Below, in pieces: positions 37,146 to 64,000 of a DNA stretch of 64,000 nt (position 1 is the stretch's first letter; every line of letters starts with the position of its first letter). The DNA is taken from the NCBI GenBank assembly GCA_028823035.1, contig JAPKCI010000001.1, positions 1 through 64,000 on the forward strand. Direction: 5' to 3'. Source of the DNA: Rubripirellula sp. (lineage in GTDB: Bacteria; Planctomycetota; Planctomycetia; Pirellulales; Pirellulaceae). Under the pieces are notes generated by a model. The model saw only the letters and a list, made by a program, of their open reading frames with translations. It ran no database searches and was not told where the DNA came from. The position numbers were made by a program, and so were the translations under genes.

Positions 37146-37551
37146 GGACGTTCAACTTCCAGAAACGAGGCTCAGTATTCAATGTACCCCCAGCATAATT
37201 GAAGCCTGCCATTACCGCTGACTTCGTTTCATTATTTCATGCGGTAGACCGCACACGGTTTTGAGAGACAGTAACCCTGAAAAGCAAGCGTCTTTCGCTT
37301 TTGTCAGATAGGTCGCAGCTGATCACATCCCACGCGGCACCTAGGATCGAGATAATATTGCATTTCCGGCAGACAAAGCTGGCTCCGCTCGTCTTCTGAA
37401 GGGGTCCTCTCGGGCATCAAAGGGGCTCACTTCGCGAAGATTTCATCAAAAACAGTCTTGACCTGCGGCGGCCGGCGTATTAATTGTGGATTAGAGGCGC
37501 GGCGAGTGAACTAACAACGCCGGCATGGAGGCTAAACTTAGGAGGCTGAAC
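37146..37551. other. Intergenic region between divergent genes
   Basis: About 400 bases between the amidohydrolase start (minus) and the next gene (plus). Apart from the Shine-Dalgarno at 37540-37545 I see no repeat, hairpin with T-run or RNA gene. Confidence 0.5.
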
Positions 37552-56547: not shown

Positions 56548-56609
56548 CTGTCGCTCGGTAAATCGCTGTCGCTCGGTAAATCGCTGTCGCTCGGTAAATC
56601 GCTGTCGCT
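56548..56609. repeat. 18-bp minisatellite, three full units plus a partial unit
   Basis: The unit CTGTCGCTCGGTAAATCG is exact at 56548-56565, 56566-56583 and 56584-56601, with an 8-base partial copy to 56609. It lies in the gap between the divergent rhomboid and DUF1501 genes. Confidence 0.96.
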
Positions 56610-56676: not shown

Positions 56677-58113
56677 ATGCATTCAAGTCTCGGCCAGAGC
56701 CTGAAACTGGCCACACGACGACAACTGTTTCAGACCTGTGGCATCGGACTCGGTAAAGCAGCCCTTGCATCGATGATCGCCCAGGAACTGGGATCCACAC
56801 CACTGCAAGCCGCAGACAGGGAACCTCGCGGACACCACCATCAACCACGTATCAAACGAGTGATTTATCTGTTCATGGCGGGTGCCCCCAGCCAGTTGGA
56901 TCTGTTTGATCACAAGCCCAAACTGACGGAACTTGAGGGCAAACCGATTCCCCCGTCTGTCATCGCAGGACAACGCTACGCTTTCATTCAGCCCAATGCT
57001 GCTGTCCTTGCTCCGCGTTTCAAGTTTGCCAGACATGGTGAATCAGGCGCTGAGTTCTCTGAAATCATGCCCCATCTCGCAACCGTCGCGGATGATCTGG
57101 CCATCATCAAGACCGTTCACACGGATCAGTTCAACCACTCACCGGCGCAACTTTTTGTGAATACCGGCAGTCCAATCCCTGGCCGACCGGCCATGGGTTC
57201 ATGGTTGAGTTACGGAATTGGCAGTGATGCAGTCGACCTACCCGGATTTGTCGTTCTCAAGAGCGGAGGCAACCTGTCGGGAGGCGCTGCAATGTGGAGC
57301 TCAGGATTTCTTTCGGGTGAACACCAAGGTGTCCCTTTTCGCACCACTGGTGACCCGATTCTTAATGTGGCAAATCCACACGGCATCGACCAGCAAACAC
57401 AGAGAGATACCATTGACCTGATCGGAAAACTGAATCGACAACAACTCGAAAAGACTGGTCCGGGTGACATCGCTACCCGCATTGAAAGCTACGAGATGGC
57501 GTATCGGATGCAGACACGAGCACCCGAGTTGATGGATTTTGGAGCAGAGGACTCAGCAACGCTAGATCTTTACGGAACCACCGGGAACGATTCGGGTTCA
57601 TTTGCAAAAAACTGCCTGCTGGCGAGAAGGCTGGCTGAACGTGGCGTGCGCTTCATTCAGCTCTACCATTCAGGCTGGGACCATCACAGTAATGTAGAGA
57701 ATGGGTTAAAAAAACAGTGCAAACAGACAGACCAAGCCTGTGCAGCTCTGATCCTCGATCTGAAACAAAGAGGCATGTTGGACGAGACGCTGGTCGTATG
57801 GGGCGGCGAGTTCGGACGAACGCCCATGGTTGAAGCAAGTGTAGCCCTGGGACGCCAACTGGGCCGCGACCACCACCCACAGGCATTCTCCATGTGGATG
57901 GCTGGAGGTGGGATTCGCAGCGGGCAGACGCTCGGAAAGACCGATGAACTCGGCTTCCGACCCATCGAAAATCCAGTTCATGTGCATGACATCCAAGCCA
58001 CAATCCTGCATCAACTGGGCATCGATCATGAACGCCTGATATTCACTTACGCAGGTCGGCCTTTTCGATTGACCGACGTCCATGGGCGCGTTCTCAAGAG
58101 TCTGGTTGGTTGA
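56677..58113 (+). CDS. DUF1501 protein (planctomycete sulphatase-fold family), Tat-type signal
   Basis: A protein of 478 residues. A twin-arginine-like signal (ATRRQLFQTCGIGLGKAALA) precedes the DUF1501 blocks RVIYLFMAGAPSQLDLFDHKP, HSPAQLFVNTGSPIPGRPAMG, VVWGGEFGRTPMVE and GRDHHPQAFSMWMAGGG. The fold is alkaline-phosphatase-like, but biochemical function is unproven. The gene usually follows a DUF1549/DUF1553 gene; this copy is solitary. I prefer ATG 56677 because it begins just before the signal; upstream codons run into the repeat area. Confidence 0.93.
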   Translation: MHSSLGQSLKLATRRQLFQTCGIGLGKAALASMIAQELGSTPLQAADREPRGHHHQPRIKRVIYLFMAGAPSQLDLFDHKPKLTELEGKPIPPSVIAGQRYAFIQPNAAVLAPRFKFARHGESGAEFSEIMPHLATVADDLAIIKTVHTDQFNHSPAQLFVNTGSPIPGRPAMGSWLSYGIGSDAVDLPGFVVLKSGGNLSGGAAMWSSGFLSGEHQGVPFRTTGDPILNVANPHGIDQQTQRDTIDLIGKLNRQQLEKTGPGDIATRIESYEMAYRMQTRAPELMDFGAEDSATLDLYGTTGNDSGSFAKNCLLARRLAERGVRFIQLYHSGWDHHSNVENGLKKQCKQTDQACAALILDLKQRGMLDETLVVWGGEFGRTPMVEASVALGRQLGRDHHPQAFSMWMAGGGIRSGQTLGKTDELGFRPIENPVHVHDIQATILHQLGIDHERLIFTYAGRPFRLTDVHGRVLKSLVG

Positions 58114-59285: not shown

Positions 59286-61223
59286 TTATGGTTTCATCAG
59301 CCACCAGACGCGGTGCAACAGAAGATTTGAATCGACCTCTGCTTCGTTCATAGCCTCGATCAATTCAACGACGTGCGGTGGTACCTCATTCTGACCCGCA
59401 AGGTAGCCAAGGTGTTCTATTTGGTTGTTGAGGTCATCGAGCAACTTCAGCCATTGCACAGGCAACGCTTCCGCTTTGGCTGGAAAATCAGCCGACAACG
59501 AGTTGTCATTCTTTCTGCCTTTGACCGGTTTGCTGTTTTCGCCGAACTGCCCCAGCGATTCTTTACCAGTCATGTCGATTTTTGCGCCAATGGAACGCAT
59601 CACCTGATCAGCACGCTGTGCTGCTGGCAGGGCCACCCGCGCCGGCAACACGGCGGCAAATGCATCAACCGCATGCATGGCTGCTTTCGTTTCAGCCTGA
59701 TTTGATGCCCAAACATTTTCTGGCAACAACGACTCAGGAACAGCACGGCGAGTCGCTGGCGAAGCAATCACCAACGCCAGTGTCCGTGACACGTTGAACC
59801 TTGAATCGATCAGATCCTGTGTCAGCTGTTCTTCCAGACGTTGCAATGCCTCGTTGTGCGGAGCGGTGATCGGATCAACCACTCGGCCATGTAGCGGTTG
59901 CCCATGTACCAATTGCCACAACGAATTAACAACTCCTCGGGCTAACTCGGAAGATCCAAGCAAACCCTCTGACCACTGTTTGATCTGTTTGTACCCGTCA
60001 GCACCAGGACTCTTCATCCAGCTCGATGGCAAAATTGGATCAGCGACGCGCTGACGTCCATCTGACAACTCGTAGAAGACTTGCTTCGCCGTGCTGCTGG
60101 CAGTATCAATTTTGAAATTCCCGTCGGCATCTCTTTCCACTCCGCGCTTTAGAAATGCTGAAAAACTCCAGTAGTCGTTCTGTAAGCCATTGCCTGCGAT
60201 GTATGCATCGTGACAGCGAGTGCATCGCAGATCAACACTCATGGTCAACGACGCCAAACGTCTTGCCATCCCGTGCTCACCGCTGGCAGACCGCGGTCCT
60301 GACGACAAAGCGGCATAGAATGCGGATGAGTTCTTGCTCTTCCCACTGAGCCAACCGGCAAGTGTGGTATCAAAGCTACTTCCTGTCTGGAAACAGGTTG
60401 CTAGTTCTTGGACCAGATTCTCTCGCAACCCGGCATCAATTCGGTCACTTCCCCGATCAGTGATCAGCTCCAACCAACGTTTCGCAACGGCCTCAGCATT
60501 CACGCTCTGAGCAAGTTCAGCTTGCAGTTCCTCTGCACTGGCGACTGCCTGAGTGGGCACCTCGGTACCAAGAATCGCAGAGAGTCTCGCAGCAGTCTCC
60601 TCAGATGCTGCCTCAGTCGTGGGTTGAATTCCAACCGCATCCCAGTAGCCTTGCATTTCGGCATCGATCTGCGCTGAAACGAGCGCCAACTCAGCAAGAT
60701 CAACCGATTCTTGAATCCTGCCACCGCCACTCACGTTAACGTCGACCTTGGTCTCTTCTGACGTTGGTGTTTGCACCATCATCTGAACGCCTCGCAAAGG
60801 CTTTCGTTTTGAGTTCGTCCCCTTGACCTGTCGCTCTTTCGACTTCTTTGTCGTCGCATCCCCAGGATTGGTAGTTTCTGTGTCGGCGATTGTGTCGGCG
60901 TTGCTATTGTCAGCGAGCGAGGACATCCCGTCGCTCAAATCGCGAGCTGGCTGCAGCGCGACGATCGCTGCAAACATGGCTGCCAACGAACCGACGGCAA
61001 AAATCGCTGCCGAGATTTGCATTGTCCGTTTACGTTTTCCCCGTGCTTGCCGCCTTTGCCTGGCTGGTCGCGTAACGTTCTCAGTCTCCACTGCCGGATT
61101 GTATAATCGCGCCAGTATCTCGCAGGACAGATCAGGCGGTCTAGTACCGCCCATTGCTTCCTGTAGCACAACGTCAAACGCCCGTTCTTCGTCAGTTGTG
61201 AAATCGTTTTTACTCATGGTCAT
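59286..61223 (-). CDS. Anti-sigma-like membrane protein with a CxxCH haem motif
   Basis: A protein of 645 residues. A cytoplasmic N-terminus of about 65 residues (MSKNDFTTDEERAFDVVLQEAMGG, PPDLSCEILARLYNP) precedes one membrane helix (about 68-90). A Ser/Thr/Asp linker and a long extracytoplasmic part follow with DLRCTRCHDAY, a CxxCH haem-c motif near residue 332, and HPELL-free but DUF1549/DUF1553-like helical blocks (GVVNSLWQLVHGQPLHGRV). The start overlaps the sigma-factor stop by ATGA, so the two are coupled. An anti-sigma role is inferred from position and topology only. Confidence 0.82.
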   Translation of the reverse strand: MTMSKNDFTTDEERAFDVVLQEAMGGTRPPDLSCEILARLYNPAVETENVTRPARQRRQARGKRKRTMQISAAIFAVGSLAAMFAAIVALQPARDLSDGMSSLADNSNADTIADTETTNPGDATTKKSKERQVKGTNSKRKPLRGVQMMVQTPTSEETKVDVNVSGGGRIQESVDLAELALVSAQIDAEMQGYWDAVGIQPTTEAASEETAARLSAILGTEVPTQAVASAEELQAELAQSVNAEAVAKRWLELITDRGSDRIDAGLRENLVQELATCFQTGSSFDTTLAGWLSGKSKNSSAFYAALSSGPRSASGEHGMARRLASLTMSVDLRCTRCHDAYIAGNGLQNDYWSFSAFLKRGVERDADGNFKIDTASSTAKQVFYELSDGRQRVADPILPSSWMKSPGADGYKQIKQWSEGLLGSSELARGVVNSLWQLVHGQPLHGRVVDPITAPHNEALQRLEEQLTQDLIDSRFNVSRTLALVIASPATRRAVPESLLPENVWASNQAETKAAMHAVDAFAAVLPARVALPAAQRADQVMRSIGAKIDMTGKESLGQFGENSKPVKGRKNDNSLSADFPAKAEALPVQWLKLLDDLNNQIEHLGYLAGQNEVPPHVVELIEAMNEAEVDSNLLLHRVWWLMKP

Positions 61224-61822
61224 TCTGCCAAAATTTTTTCTTCTACGCATTGACGTAGTTGCTGCTTGGCTCGCTGCATCAGATTCCGAGCTCCGTGATC
61301 CGTAATACTCAATGCTTCACCGATTTCGACTCGGCTTGCCTGTTCTGTGAACCGCATTCTCAGTGCTATCTGTGCCCGCTCAGTCAACGCAGCAAGGCAA
61401 TTTTTCAGTGCTTCGACCGCCGTGTCACCGGACAAATCCTTGCCGGCCCATCGATCCCATATTTCGTCCAGTAACCCCGGTTCGCACAGTGTCTGCACCT
61501 TCCGCTGCTTGCGGTGCAAGGACACCAGCAAGTTATACGCAGTCCGTCGCAGATAGCTGGACGTTGCGGCGTCGCTGTGCTGCACAAAATTGTCCCGCCG
61601 CAGCACTCGCAGGAATGTTTCCTGCGTCAAATCGTCGGCTGTCGACGAATCGCACCCCAACATTCTCAAATAACGCCAAACGCCGCTTTGGTGTCGCGCA
61701 ATCAACTCCTCTGGACCCAATTCGACCGCGGCATCAAACGCACTTACGTCTTGATGCCCCGGCGTAATCGAATCGAAGTCTGCAGTCGAAGGTTGACTTT
61801 GTGAACTCTGCGGCAAGGCCAC
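61220..61822 (-). CDS. ECF-type RNA polymerase sigma factor
   Basis: A protein of 200 residues. Region 2 is at about 45-110 (VWRYLRMLGCDSSTADDLTQETFLRVLRR, then TSSYLRRTAYNLLVSLHRKQRK). Region 4 is at about 140-190 (LAALTERAQIALRMRFTEQ, IGEALSITDHGARNLMQRAKQQLR). It lacks regions 1 and 3, as ECF factors do. The start is GTG 61822, five bases after the DUF1501 stop, and its stop overlaps the next gene. So it is expressed with DUF1501 and the haem-motif protein, its likely regulator. Confidence 0.95.
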   Translation of the reverse strand: MALPQSSQSQPSTADFDSITPGHQDVSAFDAAVELGPEELIARHQSGVWRYLRMLGCDSSTADDLTQETFLRVLRRDNFVQHSDAATSSYLRRTAYNLLVSLHRKQRKVQTLCEPGLLDEIWDRWAGKDLSGDTAVEALKNCLAALTERAQIALRMRFTEQASRVEIGEALSITDHGARNLMQRAKQQLRQCVEEKILAE

Positions 61823-61827
61823 CTGTA

Positions 61828-63102
61828 CTACCCCACCAATTCGTTAATGATCTTTCCACCACCAGCTATCTTCATGGGGCGACCATTCTTACTTGTAAAG
61901 GTCTTCTCGGTTGAAATACCAAGTCCTTTACAAACAGTGGTCATCAGGTCTTCACTGCTGAATGGCTCACTCTCGACAGCGCTCCCATCGGTACTGGTTT
62001 CGCCAACAGCGACCCCACCTTTGATGTCACCGCCACCAACCACACAGGACCAGGCACGAGCGAAGTGGTCACGACCTGCGTTCTGGTTGATACGAGGTGT
62101 ACGGCCGAACTCGCCCATCCAGATCACAACTGTATCTTTCAGCAATTCCCGCTGGTTGAGATCTTCCACCAGTGCGCTCATGGCACGGTCCAATTGTGGC
62201 AATTTCGTGTCCTTGAACAGAGTATGAATACCGTTGTGGTTATCCCATCCACCAAGATCAACCTCAACGAATGGCACACCAGCCTCGACCAGACGTCGAG
62301 CCAACAAACAGCCCTGACCGAAGCGGTCAGTACCGTAACGCTCTTTGACTTCCTCTGGCTCCTTCTCGACTCGGAACGCGTCCATCTGGTCGCTGGTCAT
62401 CAGATCAAAGGTCTTCTTGAGTACCTTGGCATGCTCGCTGGCTGGAAGGTCACGAGTACGCTGCGAGAATCCAGTTTCAATCGTATCCAACGCTGCCATC
62501 CGCTGCAGCAGTCGGTTGTCCTCAAGGTTCATCTTCAGGTTGCGGATTTGGCCATTGCTGGTCACCGAGAAAGGTGACCAAGCCATTCCCAAGAAACCAG
62601 GACCGGCACTCGCACCACCGACTGAAACAAAAGGTGGAATCTCGAGTTCCGGACGCTGATTCATCACTTCGTGAGCAATGACCGATCCATAACTCGGATG
62701 TTCGATATTCGGGTTCGGCACATATCCGGTGTGCATGTAATAACGGCCGCGATTGTGATCCGCCTCACGGGTCGACATGCTCCGAACAACTGACAGATGC
62801 TCCATCTGCTGAGCAACCATCGGCATGTGCTCACAAATCTGCAGGTCGCCAGTAGTCGAAATCGGTTTGAATGGGCCACCGGTAGGAGCTCCCGGCTTGA
62901 GATCCCAAATGTCGATCGTGGCTGGTCCGCCACCCATCCACAAAAGGATTGCCGACTTGCGTTTTTTGCGCATCTCGTCGGCGTTGGCCTGAATCGCACC
63001 ACCCATGGTCATTGACGCTGTAGCGACGGCCGATGAACCAGCCAGATGTTGCATGAAATGCCGCCGTGACATTCCGCTCGGTGTTTGCCAATTATTGATC
63101 AT
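61828..63102 (-). CDS. DUF1501 protein, Tat-type signal
   Basis: A protein of 424 residues. The signal SRRHFMQHLAGSSAVATASMT is twin-arginine-like. DUF1501 blocks: AILLWMGGGPATIDIWDLKP, NRGRYYMHTGYVPNPN, VVIWMGEFGRTPRINQNAG and GRDHFARAWSCVVGGGDIKGG. It is the usual partner of the DUF1549/DUF1553 gene immediately upstream (77 bases), and it is followed within 5 bases by the sigma-factor gene. The physiological role of this pair is unknown; haem-linked, periplasmic processes are suspected from the company they keep. Confidence 0.95.
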   Translation of the reverse strand: MINNWQTPSGMSRRHFMQHLAGSSAVATASMTMGGAIQANADEMRKKRKSAILLWMGGGPATIDIWDLKPGAPTGGPFKPISTTGDLQICEHMPMVAQQMEHLSVVRSMSTREADHNRGRYYMHTGYVPNPNIEHPSYGSVIAHEVMNQRPELEIPPFVSVGGASAGPGFLGMAWSPFSVTSNGQIRNLKMNLEDNRLLQRMAALDTIETGFSQRTRDLPASEHAKVLKKTFDLMTSDQMDAFRVEKEPEEVKERYGTDRFGQGCLLARRLVEAGVPFVEVDLGGWDNHNGIHTLFKDTKLPQLDRAMSALVEDLNQRELLKDTVVIWMGEFGRTPRINQNAGRDHFARAWSCVVGGGDIKGGVAVGETSTDGSAVESEPFSSEDLMTTVCKGLGISTEKTFTSKNGRPMKIAGGGKIINELVG

Positions 63103-63179
63103 TTGAAGAAGCCTTCGAGGAAGAGAGTTGTCTTGTTGGTTGATAAAAGTACGTTGGAAATAAAACCGTTTCGCAACAC

Positions 63180-64000
63180 CTAGTGCTGCATGATGAATTC
63201 GTTGCTATTCAGAATCGCCCACCACATATCCTGCAGCATCTCTTTTTCATTGCCCTTACGAGCAAACAACAGTTTGTTCGCGATGGTCATCTCATTCTTA
63301 CTTGGCCGCCGGGCCAATCCAGTAATGAACAAGTCATTGACGCGATCACGTGGCGATTTACCAGTCTTAGTGAGTCGATCAATGAAGCCGCCGTTGGCCG
63401 TGCTGATCGCCTTCTTGGTCAAATCCCCATTGAACAGCATCAGGGCCTGCGGAATGGAACCGTTGAACGTCGTTGCTTCGTCACCCTCATCCGTTCCAAA
63501 AGCAACCACGAACTGCTGCAACCATCGATTGCGTTCCCGCTCCTGCTCTTCGTAACTGCCCTGGGAGGATGCGTCAGTCACAATCACGAGAGACTGGTAC
63601 AGTTGCTCCGCACTCATCTGCCGAAGGTAGAAGCGTGAGAACTTTGGCATCTCGCCGATCGAAGGGTCATCGATTTCGTTATTGGATCCCAGTACTGGAG
63701 CGAGGTTGTAGGACCGACTCAGGGTAATCCAGGTAATCAACTGCTTGAGGTCGTAACTGCTTTTTCGAAACTCTGCGGCCAACTTGCTGAGCAATTCTGG
63801 ATGCGATGCAGGGTTATGGGGACCGAGATCATCCACAGGTTTTGTAAATCCAAACCCGAGGAACATCGACCACATGCGATTGACAGCCATCTTGTCGAGG
63901 TTCTCACTCTCCAACATCATTCGACCGAGTTCCTCTCGGCGATTGACATCGCTGACGTAACCGCTGACCTCGATGGGCTTGCCGTCGGTGAATACCGGGT
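63180..64000 (-). CDS. DUF1553 (PSD1) protein, C-terminal part (cut by window edge)
   Basis: The last 273 or so codons of a gene that enters from the right edge. PVFTDGKPIEVSGYVSDVNR leads into RREELGRMMLESENLDKMAVNRMWSMFLGFGFT, then DDLGPHNPASHPELLSKLA and LKQLITWITLSRSYN, which is the PSD1/DUF1553 signature. The full protein normally has an N-terminal DUF1549 domain and sometimes a haem-c domain, which lie outside the window. An internal ATG at 63920 is not the true start, because the frame stays open upstream with conserved residues. Confidence 0.93.
   Translation of the reverse strand, partial: PVFTDGKPIEVSGYVSDVNRREELGRMMLESENLDKMAVNRMWSMFLGFGFTKPVDDLGPHNPASHPELLSKLAAEFRKSSYDLKQLITWITLSRSYNLAPVLGSNNEIDDPSIGEMPKFSRFYLRQMSAEQLYQSLVIVTDASSQGSYEEQERERNRWLQQFVVAFGTDEGDEATTFNGSIPQALMLFNGDLTKKAISTANGGFIDRLTKTGKSPRDRVNDLFITGLARRPSKNEMTIANKLLFARKGNEKEMLQDMWWAILNSNEFIMQH

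Follow-up and report, generated by a model that had tools for sequence, protein, structure and literature searches.

A probable ECF sigma/anti-sigma pair in a planctomycete DUF1553-DUF1501 operon, with a c-type haem motif on the outer domain of the proposed anti-sigma factor

Membrane anti-sigma factors paired with extracytoplasmic function (ECF) sigma factors are known from FecI-FecR and HasI-HasS, where the haem signal arrives via an outer membrane transporter; in the Has system this signal comes from haem uptake, according to PMC3984077. CnrH-CnrY of Cupriavidus metallidurans, a class II pair, has a short two-helix cytoplasmic segment, and PMC7406223 reports that helix 1 of CnrY binds sigma4 and helix 2 sigma2. 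Planctomycetes hold PSCyt2-PSD1 (DUF1549-DUF1553) proteins with DUF1501 neighbours. PMC2754498, citing Studholme et al. 2004, mentions an ECF sigma factor of Rhodopirellula baltica (RB10049/RB10051) that was proposed to regulate a PSCyt2/PSD1 gene and is up-regulated by heat, cold and salt, and PMC5615132, on related Verrucomicrobia genomes, calls the functions of genes of the DUF1549/DUF1553/DUF1501 kind wholly unexplained. Here we describe an operon at the end of a 64,000-nucleotide stretch of Rubripirellula sp. DNA (GenBank assembly GCA_028823035.1, contig JAPKCI010000001.1, positions 1 to 64,000; hereafter the window), in which genes for a DUF1553 protein, a DUF1501 protein, an ECF sigma factor and a 645-aa membrane protein with a CxxCH motif follow each other. 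Taken as a whole the locus is best, and probably correctly, explained as an ECF sigma/anti-sigma switch with an outer haem-motif sensor and its own regulon.

The likeness to CnrH-CnrY lies in the short two-helix cytoplasmic segment, here named PPDL, and concerns helix make-up; unlike in CnrH-CnrY, the segment belongs to no Pfam family, and sensor and anchor are united in one protein. As in FecI-FecR and HasI-HasS a membrane anti-sigma factor appears paired with an ECF sigma factor, but the c-type haem motif is located on the anti-sigma factor itself; no transporter gene was noticed beside it, without a search aimed at one. The outer domain is related by descent to the planctomycete PSCyt2-PSD1 proteins and keeps CxxCH, whereas here it is fused to a membrane helix and PPDL and encoded beside a sigma gene. 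RB10049 was considered as the same sigma factor and rejected on size and isoelectric point (pI): it has 217 aa and a pI of 10.1, versus a pI of 4.97-6.91 in six sigma factors of the present family for starts giving 190-245 aa, some shorter starts reaching 9.8-10.0. Given this misfit RB10049/RB10051 is probably a different pair. In the partly accessible texts covered by a full-text literature search, PMC2754498 was the one paper tying an ECF sigma factor to a PSCyt2/PSD1 gene, and neither an anti-sigma factor with a c-type haem motif nor a PPDL domain was found; ECF classification surveys lay outside its scope and may list the group by number.

The window is the start of the 201-kb contig C484 of a 7.4 Mb genome in 523 contigs (labels with L, G and C denote loci, genomes and contigs, those with g and f genera and families). 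All four genes lie on the minus strand. The secreted DUF1549-DUF1553 protein is present with its C-terminal part (63180..64000; Pfam DUF1553, 1.1e-27) and starts beyond the window: coding, CxxCH included, extends to about contig position 64.85 kb, with a PSCyt2 match at C484:64140-64733. After a gap of 77 bases follows the DUF1501 gene (61828..63102; Pfam 1.9e-106), whose product has a Tat-like N-terminus although Tat models stay below cut-off, and after 5 more bases the sigma gene (61220..61822; GTG start), encoding 200 aa recognised by Pfam (Sigma70_r2 2.9e-11, r4_2 6.7e-07) and NCBIfam. Both sigma70 regions 2 and 4 score over the Pfam cut-off and the length is about 200 aa, as expected for the ECF type. 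The gene of the membrane protein (59286..61223) starts inside the sigma stop with an ATGA overlap of 4 bases. Gene order, both gaps and the overlap are exactly as originally predicted. Matches to the 645-aa protein at E 1e-8 or better occur in 47 of 119 family genomes, the weaker of which may be other DUF1549 proteins, and 30 loci were retrieved. Of these, 29 are sigma-adjacent; together with L040, a Rhodopirellula sp. metagenome-assembled genome that was the single relative from a scan of named genomes (anti-sigma 57% and sigma 88% identical to those of the window), they form a set of 30 close homologue loci. DUF1501 lies directly upstream in 28 of them, the exceptions L018 and L019 belonging to one genus. 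The window sigma factor is 53-88% identical to those of 29 other loci.

The sigma-proximal end of the membrane protein is a separate conserved domain, a point that goes beyond the original prediction. This cytoplasmic PPDL domain (residues about 10-44; 61092..61196, minus strand), proposed from profile searches and models to bind sigma, follows the pattern xLDxxLxExLxGxxPPDLxxxIL, after which we coined its name. No Pfam family covers it (eight segments scanned, best E 0.022, below any cut-off). With two helices in a short cytoplasmic segment it has the class II (CnrY-like) feature, and the HxxxCxxC zinc motif of class I (ZAS), which not every class I member has, occurs in 0 of 117 cytoplasmic segments.

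Linkage between PPDL and sigma was followed in both directions. Searches for the sigma factor covered 196 genomes from the order, 69 of which matched at 1e-20, and 246 from the phylum, of which 30 matched; the DNA beside the matches was then retrieved. Among 109 loci outside the set used for the domain model, the gene after sigma contains PPDL at an independent E-value below 0.01 in 87, weakly in 11 and undetectably in 11; these loci are partly non-independent owing to several paralogues per genome and close relatives. A membrane helix follows PPDL in all 87 proteins of the first group. Sigma and PPDL genes overlap by exactly 4 bases in 55 of 117 pairs and by any length in 77. Conversely, a search with PPDL alone gave matches in 41 of 60 family genomes, almost always a single one, and all 30 loci retrieved by this search (seven with a row in the query alignment) have a sigma gene directly upstream. 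CxxCH is found in 28 of these, L308 being cut by a contig end and L312 showing none in the stretch. Some of the 19 family genomes without a PPDL match hold a diverged copy (G010, G038, G059). At the other 44 sigma70_r2 places in the window genome no PPDL match was seen in the surrounding stretches, some of which are cut by contig ends. Tandem double PPDL occurs in one anti-sigma factor each of L020, L021 and L022 (genus g37), and probably at G016:C318:5959-6150, judged by two matches in one frame.

For structural modelling of the pair, 12 loci were used in which the sigma and domain genes share a frame, so that both could be read as one chain through the stop, a modelling device and not a biological claim. 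The joint alignment held these 12 paired rows and 35 sigma rows. For the L024 pair AlphaFold gave a mean predicted local distance difference test score (pLDDT) of 90.3 and a predicted template modelling score of 0.83, with PPDL helices at 191-206 and 215-228 at block means of 91-98. In the window protein modelled without sigma the PPDL helices have pLDDT 62-76, a comparison between different proteins and alignments and hence no strict control. Structural matches of the L024 joint model run mainly via its sigma part (residues 1-174), which matches ECF sigma chains. By VIA, root-mean-square deviations to anti-sigma-bound chains were 7.9 (4nqw), 8.8 (1rp3) and 9.7 (6pfj), 13-16 for others, and about 20-28 to RNA-polymerase-bound chains. 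This pattern is consistent with a compact, inhibited sigma form in the model, short of proof. Of the 25 strongest co-varying pairs, 15 involve domain residues 11-24 and 10 involve residues 26-44; the sigma partner is at position 111 or above in 14 of the former and 5 of the latter (Fisher 0.023, a weak signal from pairs that are not independent), a pattern that leans towards the topology reported for CnrY. Against a direct hold of PPDL on sigma stands that a contact could not be read off the L024 joint model and that the 117 pairs co-vary weakly: 3 of 200 within-cluster shuffles reach the average of the 20 best pairs, but 153 of 200 reach the single best pair. Of the structure checks envisaged originally, the 645-residue protein was modelled, and the PPDL helices were predicted with confidence beside sigma in the L024 pair.

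The membrane protein could instead be an accessory or target of sigma, such as a co-made membrane cytochrome, with PPDL serving assembly or localisation; since the fused protein is a canonical DUF1549-DUF1553 protein beside DUF1501 in 6 of 20 longer loci, an enzyme subunit is conceivable. We regard this as very unlikely, for PPDL stays tied to sigma while the outer domain becomes vWA, LRR, EF-hand or FecR, and the joint model with sigma predicts PPDL at high confidence. Reciprocal gene linkage, the conserved cytoplasmic domain and the confident joint fold lead us to assign the membrane protein, very probably, as the anti-sigma factor of this sigma factor, in agreement with the original prediction; we hold the sigma/anti-sigma pairing with high confidence.

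At the level of domain matches PPDL stays while the outer domain is exchanged. In 56 downstream proteins, many cut at about 500 aa, Pfam finds PSCyt2 in 13, vWA/YfbK in 10, leucine-rich repeats (LRR) in 5, EF-hand in 2, and FecR and HEAT in one each. CxxCH occurs at 25 of 42 loci of the window's order and at none of the 67 loci from elsewhere. The 17 order loci that lack it comprise L191-L202 (12 loci) and five that are cut, misread or diverged (L096, L097, L101, L109, L113). These counts place the haem-motif version in the window's order only, and not throughout that order. Elsewhere in the phylum, genomes of family f43 have between 3 and 8 sigma copies each and G464 (f98) has at least 13, the scan scoring up to 13 candidates in any one genome. 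At L116-L182, which lie outside the order and mostly in f43 and G464, most sigma genes are followed by a protein with the PPDL helices, and the outer domains, where Pfam finds any, are LRR, vWA, EF-hand or FecR; this looks like a lineage-specific sensor expansion.

The model of the window protein, for which 31 relatives were used, has helices at 10-23 and 33-41, a membrane helix at 66-89 (60957..61028, minus strand; positive inside), a low-confidence stretch at 92-170 and a well-folded outer part from about 178 to 645, mostly above 80-90 pLDDT with a weak stretch at 549-575. Pfam, alignment, tree and model identify this outer domain (59289..60692, minus strand) as a diverged DUF1549-DUF1553 domain. 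The sole Pfam match of the protein is PSCyt2/DUF1549 (PF07583; 1.7e-05, 25.3 bits versus a cut-off of 29.8), and an NCBIfam scan gave none. Since 31 of the 32 rows of the anti-sigma alignment match PSCyt2 at E 0.01 or better while the window protein stays under the PF07583 cut-off, we consider it a diverged descendant and not a plain member. Searches of the PDB by sequence returned weak matches only: designed proteins, Tom20, VirB10 and a GINS subunit, with E-values from 0.003 to 0.84, and, with the window protein as query, a ribosome-biogenesis chain at E 0.13. A fold search of the outer domain left the fold unplaced, though not thereby new (best Foldseek E 0.62, best VIA Z 2.6).

Within the outer domain lies the haem-attachment motif CTRCH (residues 334-338; 60210..60224, minus strand), outside the membrane as judged by the charge pattern. 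Shuffling the same protein produced a CxxCH in 5 of 20000 cases. The original prediction had staked itself beforehand on conservation of this motif among close homologues, and it proved invariant, being kept at all 30 sigma-adjacent loci. Across 32 rows that are 15-57% identical to the window protein the only invariant residues are D31, C334, C337, H338, Q348, W436 and W641. Several observations weigh against the proposed switch with an outer haem-motif sensor: no His or Met common to all 32 rows offers a second ligand, H604 being kept in most of the family and not in all canonical relatives; the outer domain of the window protein scores under the Pfam cut-off; and CxxCH is missing where the outer domain is another kind, inside the order too. 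Together with the long branch of the anti-sigma factors in the tree described below, the low score and the lack of a clear distal ligand suit another view, in which the motif is a relic of a worn-down DUF1549-DUF1553 copy that carries no haem, the anti-sigma factor responding instead to envelope stress or to a protein partner such as DUF1501 or the secreted DUF1553 protein. That both cysteines and the histidine are retained everywhere despite such divergence makes a relic unlikely. On balance we lean slightly towards covalently bound haem on the outer domain.

The second point beyond the original prediction concerns the form of the anti-sigma factor: some genera of the window's family, and other families within the order, have a full canonical DUF1549-DUF1553 protein in this role, with PPDL and a membrane helix in front. 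These fused proteins are mostly 33-53% identical to the DUF1553 protein of the window operon (L266 28%; L256 21% over part). Besides the six longer loci with the order sigma - fused protein - DUF1501, six are arranged as in the window, DUF1553 - DUF1501 - sigma - fused protein (L264 breaks off at a contig end shortly into the fused gene, and L206 holds the DUF1553 gene for L266), and eight have neither neighbour in that place. In 19 further upstream stretches DUF1553 - DUF1501 lies upstream of sigma in 8 and not in 11.

A tree of 70 rows puts 15 operon DUF1553 proteins on one branch (100/100), 20 diverged anti-sigma factors on another (99/93) and 15 paralogues from the window genome on a third (100/100). 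Operon DUF1553 proteins and fused anti-sigma factors stand apart from these paralogues at 100/100, and rooting on the paralogues joins the diverged anti-sigma factors to fused proteins from their own family (98/95). The diverged rows are long-branched, and the order of the deeper forks is uncertain. The window genome has 93 PSCyt2 and 93 PSD1 matches, and its best-scoring other DUF1553 copy is 35% identical to the operon protein. Common descent of the sensor and the operon DUF1553 protein is established computationally, from aligned sequences; the difference between them would reflect either loss of the anti-sigma part from the operon protein or its gain by the fused one. The idea that the outer part evolved from the DUF1553 family is thereby borne out by the tree and the PSCyt2 matches.

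A simple alignment of upstream regions showed no shared block. An exhaustive search for spaced words in 15 operon upstream regions found GAGTA...CGTT in 6, versus at most 5 in 60 shuffles. The refined form GRGTAC-N15-17-CGTT is present in 10 of the 15, and 300 shuffles gave 0 in 294 and 1 in 6, figures that flatter the element because the pattern was chosen on the same data. For GRGTAC-N-CGT, spacing 16 occurs in 8 of 15 regions and every other spacing from 6 to 27 in 0 or 1. The element of the window operon is found on the minus strand at 64886-64911 of the contig, 886 bases past the end of the window. A promoter-like motif upstream of the operon, which had been proposed as a check, was thus found.

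Across the genome, 30 of 39 exact sites were fetched, 23 of them covered by an open reading frame (ORF) of at least 150 codons. The remaining sites include some that precede a gene for a secreted di-CxxCH protein (PSCyt1, 3.7e-17), a PSCyt1-DUF2231 protein gene and a vWA-like protein gene (label by eye); an ORF of 170 codons overlaps a site that precedes a DUF1549-DUF1553 protein gene (label by eye). Sites upstream of the operon and of the di-CxxCH and PSCyt1-DUF2231 genes recur in the sister genome G046. The di-CxxCH PSCyt1 gene has the element in 9 of 30 orthologues (200 shuffles: 0 in 193, 1 in 7), and a lenient form in 11 of 30, all in genomes where PPDL was found. An earlier Fisher value of 0.025 for the tie between element and system was dropped, three of the seven 'negative' genomes (G010, G038, G059) holding sigma and a diverged domain. 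Inside the window an exact GRGTAC-N16-CGTT at 37164-37189 (minus strand) precedes, by 18 bases, a possible start of a same-strand gene for a secreted amidohydrolase-like protein (Amidohydro_1 5.7e-12), a possible further target.

The case for a regulon has clear points against it. Five of 15 operons lack the element and four lack even GTAC-N15-17-CGT; of the 109 other loci only 6 have it ahead of the sigma gene; the 39 exact matches in the genome compare with 53 for the reversed control, no enrichment, so that most matches are chance; the PSCyt1-DUF2231 gene has it in only 2 of 24 orthologues, both of this genus; and the recount of element against system presence, 11 of 26 versus 0 of 4, is not significant (Fisher 0.14), for which reason co-presence is not counted as evidence. 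The chance-level genome count, the absence from 5 of 15 operons and 21 of 30 PSCyt1 orthologues and the recounted association would all suit an element that belongs to another sigma factor or is some other footprint, the targets of this sigma factor lying elsewhere. Such an origin seems quite unlikely in view of the preferred spacing of 16 upstream of the operons, of the lenient form at PSCyt1 orthologues, whose 11 cases all come from genomes with a PPDL gene, and of four of the six sigma-gene sites, which come from one genus (L115, L184, L185, L188; spacing 17). In three of those four genomes no DUF1553 or DUF1501 gene lies in the upstream stretch, which makes sigma the first gene there. That the sigma factor has a regulon of its own marked by this element is, in our judgement, somewhat favoured by these data.

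Two other same-strand genes lie further upstream of the operon, a phosphatase-like and a ribulose-phosphate-epimerase-like ORF (labels by eye), and a MoaA-like gene lies downstream on the opposite strand. Beyond the latter a second, distant DUF1501 gene is found at 56677-58113 of the window (plus strand; Pfam 2e-158), and both the MoaA-like gene and this second DUF1501 gene are also present in L011, L013 and L040. Just upstream of it, at window positions 56548-56606, a direct repeat of ~18 bases (gtcgctcggtaaatcgct) occurs in about three copies by eye. The window genome also contains a second DUF1553-DUF1501-ECF sigma operon with a different sigma factor, L046 (contig C523:8500-17000). The 487-aa protein after its sigma gene has a DPDDELLVSYLDGEL-type start, with no PPDL match and no CxxCH. 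The notion that every DUF1553-DUF1501-ECF operon is of the present kind was rejected on account of this locus.

For the window operon we propose that the two-helix PPDL domain would hold sigma at the inner face of the membrane, while the outer DUF1549-DUF1553 domain with its c-type haem motif would read a signal outside, which is probably either the redox state or haem loading of planctomycete cytochromes, or else some ligand of the DUF1553/DUF1501 pair. The resulting change in this domain would then free sigma, by conformational change or proteolysis, to transcribe its own operon, that is the secreted DUF1553 protein, DUF1501, sigma and anti-sigma factor, and at least one PSCyt1 cytochrome gene from the candidate promoter GRGTAC-N16-CGTT. 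The sensor would thus be an altered copy of the kind of protein that it controls. Of this scheme, the computation shows the linkage of the genes, their domain make-up, the conserved motif, the common descent of sensor and operon protein and the promoter-like element, while sigma inhibition, haem binding, the type of signal and the way sigma is let go are inferred. The original prediction as a whole is partly supported by these results.

More broadly, we incline, if narrowly, to view PPDL as a class of anti-sigma domain not described before, which would be the constant sigma-binding module in an ECF anti-sigma family that spans the phylum and has swapped sensors (haem-motif DUF1549-DUF1553, vWA, LRR, EF-hand, FecR), in which, in the window's order, an enzyme-like haem protein would have become the sensor of a regulon making planctomycete cytochromes. 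If true, two features would be new designs within the literature searched: an anti-sigma factor that bears a c-type haem motif, and a sensor derived from the type of protein under its control. DUF1549, DUF1553 and DUF1501 are numerous, unexplained families of planctomycetes, and a dedicated sigma/anti-sigma pair with a promoter-like element offers a handle on them: the signal that releases sigma would reveal what these cytochrome-like proteins respond to.

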